The notes: generated by a model not told the origin, from the sequence alone. Counted from the stretch's first letter, positions 3,190-8,383 are shown. The stretch: DNA of 64,000 nucleotides from Fangia hongkongensis FSC776 = DSM 21703 (GCF_000379445.1 NZ_KB902274.1:62001-126000), one strand, 5' to 3'. Program-made: numbers and translations.

Positions 3190-4227
3190 ATGAGAATATG
3201 TTTTATAATGTATCCATGGGATAGAGTGGACCCGCAAACAGACTCCACTATTAGGCTCATTCATGAGTGTGTTAAAAGAGAGCATACGGTTGCAATTACA
3301 ACACCAAATAACTTAACAATCAGAGATAGTGTAGCTCAAGTATATGCTGATGTTTTTACTAAGGGAGCGAAGCTTAGTAATAGCATGGTTTCTTTTTATA
3401 AAAATGCAGTTTTTAAGCGTTGCCAGTTACCTTTGTCTGGTTTTGATGTGATTTTCATGAGAAGTAACCCGCCTTTGGACATGCTTGCTTTAAATTTTCT
3501 TGATTCTGTTGACTCGGGAACGTTTATTATGAATGACCTTAATGGATTGAGAATAGCAAACAATAAACTCTATACATCTTCATTTGATGATGAGGAAAAT
3601 AGGTTTATTCCCGTCACTCATGCATCAAAAAATAGAGAGTATCTTGAGCGAGTGCTTAAAGATTCACCTCAAGATAAAATGATTTTGAAGCCATTAAATG
3701 GCTATGGTGGTGAAGGCGTGATTGTTGTTGAAAAAAAAGCATCATCGAACTTCCGCTCATTGTTGGATTTTTATATTGGAGATAAAAATAAAACGGGCAA
3801 CTATGTTATTCTGCAGGAATATGTTGAGGGCGCTGAGAAAGGGGATGTGAGAATTTTAATGCTGAATGGAGAGCCTATTGGTGCAATGAAGCGTGTTCCG
3901 GCTGAAAATGATTTGCGTTCCAATGTGCATGCAGGTGGTCGTGTTGAAAAACATATTCTATCAAAGGAAGAAAAAGAATTATGTAAACTTATTGGACCAA
4001 AGTTAGTACAGGATGGTCTTTATTTCGTTGGTATTGATGTGATCAATGGAAAGTTAATTGAGGTAAATGTACAAAGCCCTGGTGGTATATCGCGGATAAA
4101 CAAGTTAAATGGAGTTAAGTTGCAGAAAAAAGTAATTGATTTTCTAGAGACAATTGTAACCAGTAGAAAAATAGCTATAGAAAGAAGAAAGTTATTTACC
4201 AAGGTGATAGATGATGTTAACTCTTGA
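3190..4227 (+). CDS. GshB-like ATP-grasp ligase
   Basis: A 345-residue ATP-grasp protein resembling glutathione synthetase (GshB). Shared features: FDVIFMRSNPP (GshB has DVILMRKDPP), the ATP-binding ILKPLNGYGGEGV, QEYVEGAEKGDVRILMLNGEP, the Mg2+ site in FVGIDVINGKLIEVNVQSPGGI, and HAGGR. ATP-grasp ligases join a carboxylate to an amine through an acyl phosphate. The next gene overlaps by 17 bp and encodes an amidohydrolase/metallopeptidase fusion. That conserved pairing suggests a ligase working with these hydrolases on a shared peptide-like substrate rather than housekeeping glutathione synthesis. True GshB activity is possible; no gshA is in the window. Confidence 0.75.
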   Translation: MRICFIMYPWDRVDPQTDSTIRLIHECVKREHTVAITTPNNLTIRDSVAQVYADVFTKGAKLSNSMVSFYKNAVFKRCQLPLSGFDVIFMRSNPPLDMLALNFLDSVDSGTFIMNDLNGLRIANNKLYTSSFDDEENRFIPVTHASKNREYLERVLKDSPQDKMILKPLNGYGGEGVIVVEKKASSNFRSLLDFYIGDKNKTGNYVILQEYVEGAEKGDVRILMLNGEPIGAMKRVPAENDLRSNVHAGGRVEKHILSKEEKELCKLIGPKLVQDGLYFVGIDVINGKLIEVNVQSPGGISRINKLNGVKLQKKVIDFLETIVTSRKIAIERRKLFTKVIDDVNS

Positions 4228-6196
4228 TGAAGATGAAATTATTCAGAAAATAAAAAATAATGAATGCTTTAGTGCTCAAAATAGCACGGGTTCATTTGTT
4301 ATTACTATTAATGCATATGTTCCTTATTTAGCAACAGCTATTCATGCAGGGAAACAGATTAGTAAAGAAATGGAAGACTGCTATACAGTAGATGAAAAAG
4401 AGCGTTTATTTGAAGAAGACCCCTATACGGATGAGTTTATATTTGGATTGCCCATTACACTTGTAGCAAAGGATTCTCGATTTAGCTATGATCTTAACAG
4501 GTCAATTGACCAGTGTGTTTACGATACGGCATGGGGAAAAACAGTCTGGAAAAAACCAATTACAGATAAAATGAGAGATGAGCTCTATAGCCGTCATAGT
4601 AAATATTATAAAATATTGAAAGCCCTTGTGTCTAAATTAGAGTCGTTATACTCGAAGTGTTACATTTTTGATATTCATAGTTATAATTATCAAAGAATCA
4701 CAACGGTGCAAACACCAACTTTTAACTTAGGCTCATTTTACTGTCAGCATCGATATCAATCAGAAGTTGAACGCTTTGTAGCGGATTTAGGCAAAATTGT
4801 ACTCCCTAACCTTGATACAACAGTTGAAGTCAATAATGTATTTGAAGGGAAGGGCTACCAAGCTTTCTTTATTAATAAATTCTTTAAGCATACTTGCCTG
4901 TTCCCAGTAGAAATTAAAAAAGTTTTTATGGATGAAAATGAAGGCATTCCTTACCCGTTAGTTATAGAAGAAGTCGCTAAAGAATTGCAAAGAGCCATAA
5001 AATCTTTTGTTGATAAGAGTCAGAAAAAATCATCTGCTATGTCAGTTGGAAAACATAGAGTTGATAAGGAGGTAATTGCTTTAGATAAAAAGCTTTTTCA
5101 GCTTTCAAGGAAAATCGATGTCTTGTACTATGTTAATCCCATTAATTATGAATCGGAAAAGCGTAAATTTTTTAAAAATCCCATGAGTTACTATCCGGAT
5201 TTCAAATATCGCCAATTAAAAATTGATCCCTTTGATTTTAGAGAAAAACTATATAAGCTCCCAGTTTCTAACGTAAGCTCTCCGACATTACGACAACTAT
5301 ACCGTGAAGTTATTGATTCTATCGCCTTAGATGTGGACTTAATTACAAGTGTCGGTACAGAAAGTTTTTTTTATAATTCCTTAAGGATATATGGCGAGCC
5401 GAATAATAGAGATATTAATAATGCAAAGTTTTTATTGTATGCTCCAGCGAGTTGTCATCAAGACAAAAAGGTTGTTTCTGCTGAGGAAATTATTCATTTA
5501 TTTGAAGAGAGTATTCAGCATTATGATATCCCATTTCAAATCAGGCTATCAGACCAGATTATTGCTAAGGCAATGGTTGATAATACAAAAAAAATGGTCC
5601 TGATTAATAAAAGAGCACAGTTAACACGAACTGAGCTTTTAGCTTTGATACATCATGAGGTTGGAGTGCATGCGGTTACTACTAGTAATGCAGAGAGGCA
5701 GCCATTATCTATTTACCGTTTGGGCTTGCCAAATAATACGCATACACAAGAAGGCTTAGCCATTTATAGTGAGTATCTTTCCGGTAACTTAACATTGGAG
5801 AGGTTGCAGGAGCTGGCATTGCGAGTTGTCGCCGTTGATCATATGATTAAACACCAAAATTTTATCAAAACGTATCAGTACATACTAACAAACTATAAAG
5901 ATGATAAAGAATTTTGTTTCAAACTGGTGTCACGTGTTTATCGTGGTGGGGGCTTTAGTAAAGACTTTCTGTATTTAAGTGGGCTTAGAGATATCATTAA
6001 AAATATAACACATCCAAATTTCAATCTACTATTTTCAGGTAAAACAAGCTTGCAATACCTTGATCTTTTGCAACTCTTAGCTCAAGAGGGGTATTTAGTC
6101 TCTCCACATCTTATGCCTATTAGTTATCACGATAAGATACAAAAAAAAGACAAAGATCGTATCATCATCGATTATTTAATAGAGTCCATTCGGTAA
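4211..6196 (+). CDS. Fusion: N-formylglutamate amidohydrolase-like domain + QEGLA (DUF1704/MATCAP-type) metallopeptidase domain
   Basis: 661 residues in two parts. Residues ~25-260 resemble the N-formylglutamate amidohydrolase (HutG-type) zinc fold: IHAG near 44-47, SYDLNR at 92-97 and FDIHSYN at 153-159. Residues ~285-650 match the QEGLA/DUF1704 family, related to the tubulin tyrosine carboxypeptidase MATCAP. The zinc motif HHEVGVH is at 481-487 (ligands H482 and H487, base E483), and the name-giving QEGLA is at 513-517, where E514 is the likely third ligand. Related bacterial families are usually annotated as separate genes. Start: an AAGGTGAT ribosome site is followed by two tandem ATGs (4211, 4214). 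Substrate unknown. Confidence 0.75.
   Translation: MMLTLDEDEIIQKIKNNECFSAQNSTGSFVITINAYVPYLATAIHAGKQISKEMEDCYTVDEKERLFEEDPYTDEFIFGLPITLVAKDSRFSYDLNRSIDQCVYDTAWGKTVWKKPITDKMRDELYSRHSKYYKILKALVSKLESLYSKCYIFDIHSYNYQRITTVQTPTFNLGSFYCQHRYQSEVERFVADLGKIVLPNLDTTVEVNNVFEGKGYQAFFINKFFKHTCLFPVEIKKVFMDENEGIPYPLVIEEVAKELQRAIKSFVDKSQKKSSAMSVGKHRVDKEVIALDKKLFQLSRKIDVLYYVNPINYESEKRKFFKNPMSYYPDFKYRQLKIDPFDFREKLYKLPVSNVSSPTLRQLYREVIDSIALDVDLITSVGTESFFYNSLRIYGEPNNRDINNAKFLLYAPASCHQDKKVVSAEEIIHLFEESIQHYDIPFQIRLSDQIIAKAMVDNTKKMVLINKRAQLTRTELLALIHHEVGVHAVTTSNAERQPLSIYRLGLPNNTHTQEGLAIYSEYLSGNLTLERLQELALRVVAVDHMIKHQNFIKTYQYILTNYKDDKEFCFKLVSRVYRGGGFSKDFLYLSGLRDIIKNITHPNFNLLFSGKTSLQYLDLLQLLAQEGYLVSPHLMPISYHDKIQKKDKDRIIIDYLIESIR
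4847..4854 (+). other. KOPS-like octamer (FtsK orienting sequence), left of dif
   Basis: GGGAAGGG on the + strand, matching GGGNAGGG and pointing right, toward dif. Inside the QEGLA fusion gene. Confidence 0.35.
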
Positions 6197-6201
6197 TATA
6201 C

Positions 6202-6984
6202 ATGATCGCACTTAGAGATGTCAGTTATCTTTCAAGAGTTAAGTCTCTGGAGTATCAGTTTCACGCCCAACGTTGCTATGGCACATTAGGCGTCAATGGC
6301 GCAGGAAAATCAACCTTATTGAAGCTGCTCTCTGGGCAATTTCCACACAAAAAAGTATCAGGAGAGATGTATTTAAATCAAATGAACCTTCTACAAATGC
6401 AAACAAAAGAGCGAGCAAAATATATTGCCATGCTATCACAAAGCATACATTTGAATTTCCCCTATTTAGCCGAGGATATTTTGGCGATGGGACGCTATGC
6501 TCTTGGTTTATCAAATCAGCAAACAAAAGCGGCATTTGACCTGATTGTGGAGTTGCTCCATTTGGAGCCAATACTCAAAAAAGAGTATCATAAACTCTCA
6601 GGCGGTCAAAAGCAGCGCCTTCAGCTTGCGCGCGTGATTTTCCAGTTAATAGGGGATTTGGATGAGGAAAATGAGCGTTGGCTTTTATTGGATGAGCATG
6701 CAGCAGGTCTTGATATATATCGTCAATATCAATCTTTTGAGGTGTTAATGTCAATTAAACAAAGATTTAATATTGGGATTATTGCAATTATCCACGATAT
6801 TAATTTGGCAGCAAAGTATGCAGATAATTTATTACTTTTAGATCAAGGAGAGCTTGCAATTGCAGGCAATGCTGAAAAAGTGCTGTTATCAGGTGAATTT
6901 TCAAACGCTTTTCAAAGTAAAGTTGAGTACTTAAGTGAAAAAGCGATATACTTAACGCACCCAAATAGATCGACAATGAGTTAA
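6202..6984 (+). CDS. ABC transporter ATP-binding protein, heme/siderophore (HmuV/FecE)-like, orphan
   Basis: 260-residue nucleotide-binding subunit. Walker A GVNGAGKST at 30-38, signature LSGGQKQR at 132-139 followed by LQLAR, Walker B LLLDE at 161-165, and switch histidine in AIIHDINLAA. Overall it resembles the iron-chelate/heme/B12 import ATPases (HmuV, FecE, BtuD). It starts 5 bp after the QEGLA fusion gene and ends 9 bp before pyrE, so it is co-transcribed. No permease or binding-protein gene is nearby, so partners lie elsewhere or the assignment to import is wrong. The region between signature and Walker B is extended (GDLDEENERW), as in HmuV. Confidence 0.75.
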   Translation: MIALRDVSYLSRVKSLEYQFHAQRCYGTLGVNGAGKSTLLKLLSGQFPHKKVSGEMYLNQMNLLQMQTKERAKYIAMLSQSIHLNFPYLAEDILAMGRYALGLSNQQTKAAFDLIVELLHLEPILKKEYHKLSGGQKQRLQLARVIFQLIGDLDEENERWLLLDEHAAGLDIYRQYQSFEVLMSIKQRFNIGIIAIIHDINLAAKYADNLLLLDQGELAIAGNAEKVLLSGEFSNAFQSKVEYLSEKAIYLTHPNRSTMS

Positions 6985-6993
6985 TGTATAATC

Positions 6994-7644
6994 ATGTTAC
7001 AAACAAGATTTTTTGATATTGCTTTGGAGGCCAAAGCACTGCGCTTTGGTGAGTTCACACTGAAATCTGGACGAATAAGTCCTTATTTTTTTAATGCGGG
7101 GCTGTTTAATGATGGACAAAAACTCTATCAGTTAGCGACGTGCTATGCACAGTGTATCATTGAAAAAAACATTCAATTTGATGTTTTATTTGGTCCTGCG
7201 TATAAAGGCATTCCTCTGGTGGCTCTCGTTTCGGCGATATTATATGAGGTGCACGGCAGAAATGTCGGCTTTTGTTATAACCGTAAAGAGCAAAAAGATC
7301 ATGGCGAGGGCGGTATTTTAGTTGGCAGTGATATTAAAAATAAGCGCGTTTTAATTATTGATGATCTCATAACAGCTGGTACAGCTATTAAACAGGCAAT
7401 TGGTATGATTCAAGCAGCAGAAGCTGGGCTCTCTGGCGTTGTGGTTGCACTTGATCGAGAGGAAGTAGCATCAAATCAGAGAGTTTCAGCGATTCAAGCA
7501 ATTGAAGATACGTATCAATTTCCAGTGTTTTCAGTTGCCTCTTTGAGCGCGATGATTCAATTTATGAAAACGCATGGCGCTTTTTCTAAGGATGAAATTC
7601 AGCGTATAGAGCATTATCAAGCAGAGTATGGAGTCAAACAATAA
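6994..7644 (+). CDS. pyrE: Orotate phosphoribosyltransferase
   Basis: 216 residues, the normal length. PyrE joins orotate to PRPP to make OMP in pyrimidine synthesis. Seen directly: KALRFGEFTLKSGRISPYFFNAG near the N-terminus, FGPAYKGIPL, the flexible loop YNRKEQKDHGEGG, and the PRPP motif VLIIDDLITAGTA near residues 120-133. It sits 9 bp after the ABC ATPase and 1 bp before the racemase-like gene, so it is embedded in the + strand operon. Confidence 0.96.
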   Translation: MLQTRFFDIALEAKALRFGEFTLKSGRISPYFFNAGLFNDGQKLYQLATCYAQCIIEKNIQFDVLFGPAYKGIPLVALVSAILYEVHGRNVGFCYNRKEQKDHGEGGILVGSDIKNKRVLIIDDLITAGTAIKQAIGMIQAAEAGLSGVVVALDREEVASNQRVSAIQAIEDTYQFPVFSVASLSAMIQFMKTHGAFSKDEIQRIEHYQAEYGVKQ

Positions 7645-7645
7645 C

Positions 7646-8383
7646 ATGATTGGTATTCTTGCTGGTATGGGGCCATTTTCAACAGCGCCTTTTATTGATC
7701 GATTGATGAAAAGCTGGCAAGAGCACTTTAATGCGCACTATGATATAGATTTTCCTCATGTATTAATATATTCATTGCCAACACCATTTTACCTTGATCG
7801 AGAAGTAGATCATTTGGTTTTAGAGAGAAGCATCATAACTGGAGCGCTTAAACTTCAAAGTGCAGGAGTTGATTTTATTGCAATGCCTTGTGGTAGTGCA
7901 CATAGGTATTTTGAGGCAGTAAAAAGCAAGCTTAATATTGAGCTTCTAAATATGCTCGAATTAAGCATCACTAATCTTACTGATCTTACTGGTAAAGCCC
8001 AAAAGATTGCTGTTTTAGCCACGGATTCAACTATAAGTTCAGGTCTGTATCAAAGAGCGCTAGAACAAAAGGGTTTGGCTTATATTAACTCTATGATCTA
8101 TCAAAAGGATGTAAATGCGTTAATTCACTCTGTTAAATGCGCCAAAGAGACCAATTATCTTGATGTTAAGGCTGTAAATCTGCTTGAGAAACTAAAAAAA
8201 GAAAATGTCAAAACAGCACTTATTGCTTGCACTGAATTAAGTGAGTGCTTCTCACGCATAATTCATTCACCGAGCTACCAAAATAAAATAGATATAATCG
8301 ATGCTTCCGATGCGTTAGTAAAAGGCAGCGTCTTTACTGGAAGCACGATAAAAGAAAGTGCGCTAGACTTGTTGTTTTTCTAA
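7646..8383 (+). CDS. Aspartate/glutamate racemase family protein
   Basis: 245 residues of the Asp/Glu racemase superfamily, which interconverts amino-acid stereoisomers with two opposed cysteines and no cofactor. Both are present: C82 in AMPCGSAH (family MPCNTAH, so the usual Asn is Gly here) and C195 in IACTELS. The protein opens with MIGILAGMGPFST, the family N-terminus. An in-frame ATG 18 nt upstream (7628) lies inside pyrE; I prefer 7646 because it matches the family, with GGAG 12 nt ahead. The Asn-to-Gly change leaves specificity (Asp, Glu or other) open. Confidence 0.75.
   Translation: MIGILAGMGPFSTAPFIDRLMKSWQEHFNAHYDIDFPHVLIYSLPTPFYLDREVDHLVLERSIITGALKLQSAGVDFIAMPCGSAHRYFEAVKSKLNIELLNMLELSITNLTDLTGKAQKIAVLATDSTISSGLYQRALEQKGLAYINSMIYQKDVNALIHSVKCAKETNYLDVKAVNLLEKLKKENVKTALIACTELSECFSRIIHSPSYQNKIDIIDASDALVKGSVFTGSTIKESALDLLFF

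Follow-up and report, generated by a model that had tools for sequence, protein, structure and literature searches.

A recurrent gene pair for a GshB-like ATP-grasp ligase and a fused FGase-MATCAP hydrolase in Fangia hongkongensis: a candidate module for reversible amino-acid ligation

Results

The analysed window, a stretch of 64,000 nucleotides from the genome of Fangia hongkongensis FSC776 (DSM 21703), carries two genes on the plus strand whose reading frames overlap by 17 bp (4211..4227, +). The first gene (3190..4227, +) encodes an ATP-grasp carboxylate-amine ligase of 345 aa, here called LIG, which belongs to the PRK12458 subfamily and is composed of the Pfam domains GSH-S_N (82.7 bits) and GSH-S_ATP (187.7 bits). 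The second gene (4211..6196, +) encodes a fusion protein of 661 aa. Its N-terminal part is an FGase-like amidohydrolase domain (4211..5026, +; approximately residues 1-272) and its C-terminal part a MATCAP/QEGLA metallocarboxypeptidase-like domain (5066..6193, +; approximately residues 286-661). A first-pass annotation made from the sequence alone had proposed an overlapping ligase/fusion pair with intact zinc residues in both hydrolase parts. Its coordinates were exact, and the expected motif residues were present in both domains.

The FGase part matches PF05013 at residues 38-215 with 58.4 bits (cut-off 28.9) and contains the motifs H45xG, SRxxxDxNR, DxHS and ExKK (E234, K236 and K237), with a site consisting of H45, S89, R90, D94, N96, R97, D154, H156, E234 and K237. 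The MATCAP part matches PF08014 at residues 319-642 with 316.9 bits and harbours an HExxxH motif at residues 482-487 (H482, E483 and H487), the QEGLA glutamate E514 and the motif RGGGxxKDxxY at residues 578-588. In addition, the fusion scores above the NCBIfam cut-off of the QEGLA family TIGR02421 (370.5 bits; cut-off 338.65). Both hydrolase sites are conserved over 50 homologues, except for the cases of decayed FGase sites described below.

Structure prediction, which had been suggested as a check for the fusion, recovered both folds. The AlphaFold model of the fusion had a mean pLDDT of 92, with low confidence in the linker (residues 274-281), and Foldseek matched it to human MATCAP (KIAA0895L, 7z5g; TM-score 0.73) and to the N-formylglutamate amidohydrolases 2q7s and 2odf (TM-score 0.70-0.73). 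The fusion has the HExxxH motif and the QEGLA glutamate in common with the human MATCAP-TMCP enzymes, but it is bacterial, carries an attached FGase-like domain and has an ATP-grasp ligase as partner; tubulin binding is not applicable to it. Likewise, it shares the family profile and the HxG, SRxxxDxNR and DxHS motifs with N-formylglutamate amidohydrolases, but its FGase part scores far below the cut-off of the HutG equivalog TIGR02017 (15.3 versus 278.75 bits), lies outside a histidine-degradation operon and represents a distinct subfamily that is co-inherited with LIG. The LIG model (mean pLDDT 88) has the two-domain ATP-grasp fold of E. coli GshB (1gsa; TM-score 0.87), the nearest fold neighbour, followed by RimK and LysX/ArgX.

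The genes flanking the pair in the window (encoding a PatB C-S lyase, an ArsR-like regulator, an HmuV-like ABC ATPase, PyrE and a racemase) were considered as members of the system and rejected. Three further genomes from the family of F. hongkongensis keep LIG and the fusion alone, in unrelated surroundings, and we therefore regard these two genes as the unit. The ArsR-like regulator gene (2512-2928) is divergently oriented, and its product scores just under the NCBIfam metalloregulator cut-off (51.9 versus 55 bits). The ABC ATPase gene (6202-6984) starts 5 bp past the fusion; its product is HmuV/BtuD-like, below the equivalog cut-offs, and no permease gene is adjacent. A gene for an Asp/Glu racemase family protein resembling the cysteate racemase CuyB (131.7 bits; cut-off 190) overlaps pyrE at 7628-8383. 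No osmotic genes were seen in the flanks of the window and no RNA elements were found near the operon. The number of promoter-like sites was about as expected, and terminator-like sites were in slight excess (8 versus 3.6 in shuffled sequences), to which we attach no functional significance.

When bacterial and archaeal genome contigs were searched with the QEGLA part, 80 related loci were found. In 65 of them a fused FGase-QEGLA gene directly follows LIG. The two frames overlap in all 65, by exactly 17 bp in 36, which indicates that the arrangement is not due to chance. The hosts are mostly marine Gammaproteobacteria, but the pair also occurs in Bacteroidota, Nitrospirota, Planctomycetota and others, where many of the genomes are metagenome-assembled. 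Conservation within the module is highest for LIG, with a mean identity of 68%, compared to 48% for the FGase and 50% for the QEGLA part. In other proteobacteria the FGase, QEGLA and ligase genes are separate neighbours (L036, L056, L058 and L060), and on rhizobial megaplasmids an unfused operon is annotated as FGase, QEGLA and 'glutathione synthase'. The laboratory strain Sinorhizobium meliloti 1021 has the three genes on pSymB, at approximately 1122942-1126740 of NC_003078.1. The first-pass annotation had proposed that ligase, FGase and QEGLA belong together, and this genome-context search supports such a unit in many phyla: LIG and the fusion constitute an ancient module that is conserved across phyla.

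Long QEGLA proteins that are not fused to an FGase have an N-terminal region that resembles a degenerate FGase-like domain in profile comparison (probability 89%, E 3e-6), which disfavours an unrelated domain at this position. As a consequence, the fused form may be the older arrangement, as far as profile comparison can tell. A virus-borne origin of the system was also considered and rejected, as a BFVD search gave only weak FGase-like matches. In approximately 30 loci, many from marine Gammaproteobacteria (L075-L154), the module is adjoined by divergent hdfR (LysR) and maoP (DUF413), which points to a shared chromosomal site. On one gammaproteobacterial contig (L154:3-5938) a pair of QEGLA genes encloses two copies of LIG. 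At another locus (L057:5661-8610) the QEGLA gene overlaps a gene for an AstE/AspA-type amidohydrolase in place of the FGase, a possible partner swap, and no LIG is adjacent.

LIG is routinely annotated as glutathione synthetase, a point that the first-pass annotation did not raise. It passes one automated GshB cut-off (PRK05246; 282.7 versus 272 bits) and shares the ATP/Mg residues K126, K167, D283, E291 and N293 with GshB, as would be expected if LIG also synthesised glutathione and the fusion recycled it or its conjugates. However, LIG does not reach the cut-off of the GshB equivalog TIGR01380 (243.7 versus 299.05 bits), while it exceeds the curated cut-off of PRK12458 (NF009110; 453.3 versus 408 bits). 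It also scores far below the RimK equivalog NF007764 (55.5 versus 331 bits). The genome from which the window was taken encodes a separate canonical GshB elsewhere (370 bits against TIGR01380, above the cut-off) as well as GshA. In a phylogenetic tree, 21 GshB proteins formed one clade excluding LIG (support 0.997), with the LIG forms not all resolved as one clade. Several positions that are constant in GshB are changed in LIG (D7 to Y8, D86 to N93, F89 to L96 and T286 to G298), and such positions are differently constant there, as in the change from SPT to SPG after the Mg-binding asparagine.

We also tested 16 genomes with LIG from outside mainstream Proteobacteria for the glutathione pathway. 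Canonical GshB was found in none of these genomes and GshA of either type was undetected in 12; most are metagenome-assembled genomes of Bacteroidota and other non-proteobacterial lineages, and although such assemblies can have gaps, they show a uniform pattern. In 15 of the 16, LIG is located in or beside the locus, and in the remaining one (L088) it is on another stretch. Judged by phylogeny and gene content, the housekeeping glutathione synthetase is an enzyme other than LIG: GshB forms a clade of its own, both GshB and GshA are present in the same genome as LIG, and LIG is found in genomes in which no glutathione pathway is detected. These findings make it unlikely that the ligase acts as GshB, which was part of what the first-pass annotation had named as refuting its proposal.

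To see how the parts of the module are inherited, we used a 299-genome sample of the phylum, in which the FGase subfamily was counted above 200 bits. LIG was present in eight genomes and the FGase subfamily in seven, with both in six, LIG alone in two and FGase alone in one (Fisher 2e-10, a value inflated by phylogenetic relatedness). QEGLA was present in 29 genomes, 22 of which had no LIG. The core FGase site was intact in 61 of the 65 loci with an adjacent LIG and in two of the eight complete fusions without one (Fisher 3e-5, likewise inflated, although the losses are spread over about four lineages). Concerning these two, the genome of L151 carries LIG at another place, and in L077 additional residues of the FGase motifs are gone. 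In several fusions without an adjacent LIG (L092, L119, L132 and L135) E234 or H156 was lost, and the fusion of L082 has lost H45. Moreover, the QEGLA proteins of L149, L150 and L153, which have no FGase domain, come from genomes without LIG. The MATCAP site, on the other hand, was intact in every fusion examined, with or without an adjacent LIG. Marinobacterium is an exception that speaks against a functional link between FGase and LIG, as it has kept LIG while its FGase site is decaying.

Co-inheritance and site decay are most simply explained by an FGase domain acting on the product or in the pathway of LIG and by a MATCAP domain whose role can stand alone. The cooperation of the domains that had been predicted from the fusion is thus supported for the FGase domain, which tracks the ligase both in inheritance and in active-site integrity. 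Hydrolases occurring independently of the ligase in most genomes had been named as evidence against the proposal. This independence was observed for QEGLA/MATCAP and not for the FGase subfamily, for which six of the seven strong genomes also contain the ligase.

A published salinity transcriptome of Photobacterium damselae suggests a link between the module and low salt, an association that is absent from the first-pass annotation. In 1% NaCl, A0J47_RS17020, annotated 'GshB', was upregulated 38-fold and the adjacent A0J47_RS17025 (QEGLA) 27-fold (PMC10308900). RimK was upregulated 52-fold at low salt in the same data, and the authors treated A0J47_RS17020 as GshB, comparing it with the phenotype of V. 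cholerae gshB (PMC10308900). In the P. damselae locus (L091) the genes for a lipoprotein, HdfR, MaoP, LIG and the fusion follow each other in the order of the locus tags RS17005 to RS17025. Because of this synteny, together with the annotation, A0J47_RS17020 is very probably LIG.

Gene neighbourhoods point in a similar direction. In four lineages (L082/L084, L119, L120 and L136) the gene that comes next after the fusion encodes an MscS-type mechanosensitive channel, compared to 0.1-0.3 expected by chance in a rough Poisson estimate. In one genus (f54 g106: L058, L059, L065 and L067) RloA-, RloB- and RloC-like genes are found directly beside LIG, and in Pseudomonas the tolerance of hypo-osmotic conditions requires the RloABC operon (PMC12239564). 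The pair rimB-rimK adjoins fusion genes in L092 and L119; true rimK neighbours number three in about 113 loci (Poisson approximately 0.02), and adjacency alone is weak evidence. Furthermore, ectAB is located close to the module in two Vibrio genomes, and the trio of Shinella adjoins a Na+/H+ antiporter operon. Taking the one transcriptome and these neighbourhoods together, the module is probably involved in hypo-osmotic adaptation in at least some hosts.

Discussion

GshB, RimK and LysX/ArgX, the fold neighbours of LIG, each extend the carboxylate of a peptide or carrier protein by one amino acid. Human and animal MATCAP/TMCP enzymes cleave off C-terminal residues and reverse polyglutamylation (PMC10499314). 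Because the relatives of LIG extend carboxylates and those of the MATCAP domain trim C-termini, we propose a cycle of reversible ligation and removal. On balance, we favour a reversible amino-acid ligation module in which LIG adds and the fusion removes, with the overlap fixing their ratio, and which is used at low salt in some hosts. LIG, as a GshB/RimK-type ATP-grasp enzyme, would use ATP to activate a carboxylate and would attach an amino acid to this group, which is probably the C-terminal end of a peptide or protein tail. An amide made by LIG or downstream of it would then be hydrolysed by the FGase-like domain, and the MATCAP-like domain would trim C-terminal residues off the same or a related tail. 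The latter domain may also work without LIG, possibly on glutamyl tails of the RimK type. We found no sign of RimK in the genome of the window, so that the MATCAP part is presumably not solely an eraser of RimK tails here. Translational overlap would keep the opposing activities in a fixed ratio, and switching on the module in low salt would serve hypo-osmotic adaptation in at least some hosts.

This proposal builds on our observations on the order and overlap of the genes, the identity of the domains and their intact sites, the co-inheritance and the distinction between LIG and GshB, and on the low-salt induction reported for genes that we matched by synteny (PMC10308900). From these we infer the class of substrate, the direction of each reaction and the physiological role; the amino-acid tag or small peptide metabolite suggested in the first-pass annotation is likewise an inference.

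The main rival explanation, which we consider possible with a distinctly lower probability, is that the product formed and degraded by the module is a soluble peptide metabolite, such as a glutathione-like peptide or a gamma-glutamyl or osmolyte peptide, instead of a modified protein tail. In its fold and its N-terminal substrate domain LIG most resembles GshB, whose substrate is a dipeptide, relatives of the FGase domain use small N-acyl amino acids as substrates, and the ectAB genes near the module in Vibrio belong to compatible-solute metabolism. On the other hand, the closest characterised relatives of the MATCAP domain act on protein tails (PMC10499314), and the neighbouring genes repeatedly encode RimK, RimB and Rlo proteins, which handle glutamyl tails of peptides or sequences rich in glutamate. 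It is improbable that the gene pair serves catabolism, scavenging amino acids that are N-acylated or bound in peptides, and that the ligase is functionally unrelated. Amidohydrolases of the FGase and the AstE/DoeB type do take part in amino-acid catabolism, and an AstE-like gene is found beside some QEGLA genes, but neither the high conservation of LIG nor the correlation of FGase site integrity with its presence is expected for a passenger. The least probable explanation, a second glutathione synthetase, is contradicted by the score against TIGR01380, the changed GshB-constant residues, the resident GshB and GshA and the LIG genomes in which neither enzyme was detected.

For reversible ligation on a tail there are known systems with a similar logic. 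In RimK-RimB, which add and remove polyglutamate on ribosomal protein S6, an ATP-grasp ligase is also opposed by a hydrolase; P. damselae induces RimK along with the module, and rimB-rimK occur beside fusion genes at two loci. The RimK ligase belongs to another clade, though, RimB is an aspartic endopeptidase whereas the hydrolases of the module are metalloenzymes, and RimK was undetected in the genome of the window. The Rlo operon of Pseudomonas aeruginosa (RloA retropepsin, RloB and RloC ATP-grasp) also combines a ligase with a peptidase and has a hypo-osmotic phenotype, but it consists of other proteins, its RloA is secreted, and no Rlo protein is encoded in the window. In the eukaryotic tubulin tyrosine ligase/MATCAP cycle an ATP-grasp ligase is opposed by a carboxypeptidase of the MATCAP fold. 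The tubulin ligase is of another ATP-grasp family and encoded apart from MATCAP, and no tubulin substrate is implied for the module.

A more far-reaching version of our proposal, which we regard as doubtful, is an osmotically regulated add-and-remove system in bacteria of several phyla. A low-salt ligase, with or without RimK, would build amino-acid tails or oligopeptides, and the FGase-MATCAP protein would dismantle them. Such a system could tune protein charge to ionic strength, or condense free amino acids and thereby lower internal osmolarity, as a counterpart of the tubulin tail code.

The component families are already present in public libraries, under names that are either incorrect (glutathione synthetase) or uninformative (flavohemoglobin expression-modulating). 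A search of a paper library on QEGLA, DUF1704, the combination of MATCAP with ATP-grasp and that of FGase with glutathione synthase did not reveal a description of the module. Parts of it may be touched on in a survey of ATP-grasp amidoligases that Iyer et al. reportedly published in 2009 (Mol Biosyst). Our analysis identifies a recurrent module of a ligase and a double hydrolase, and corrects a widespread annotation by which 'glutathione synthetase' is assigned where no glutathione pathway is detected. It also offers an explanation for a top low-salt-induced gene pair of the P. damselae transcriptome. Bacterial MATCAP homologues, otherwise described only as 'flavohemoglobin expression-modulating QEGLA motif protein', gain a testable partner and a testable condition. 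If the module indeed modifies tails, bacteria would have an analogue of the tubulin tyrosination/glutamylation cycle, and one that is accessible in Sinorhizobium meliloti.
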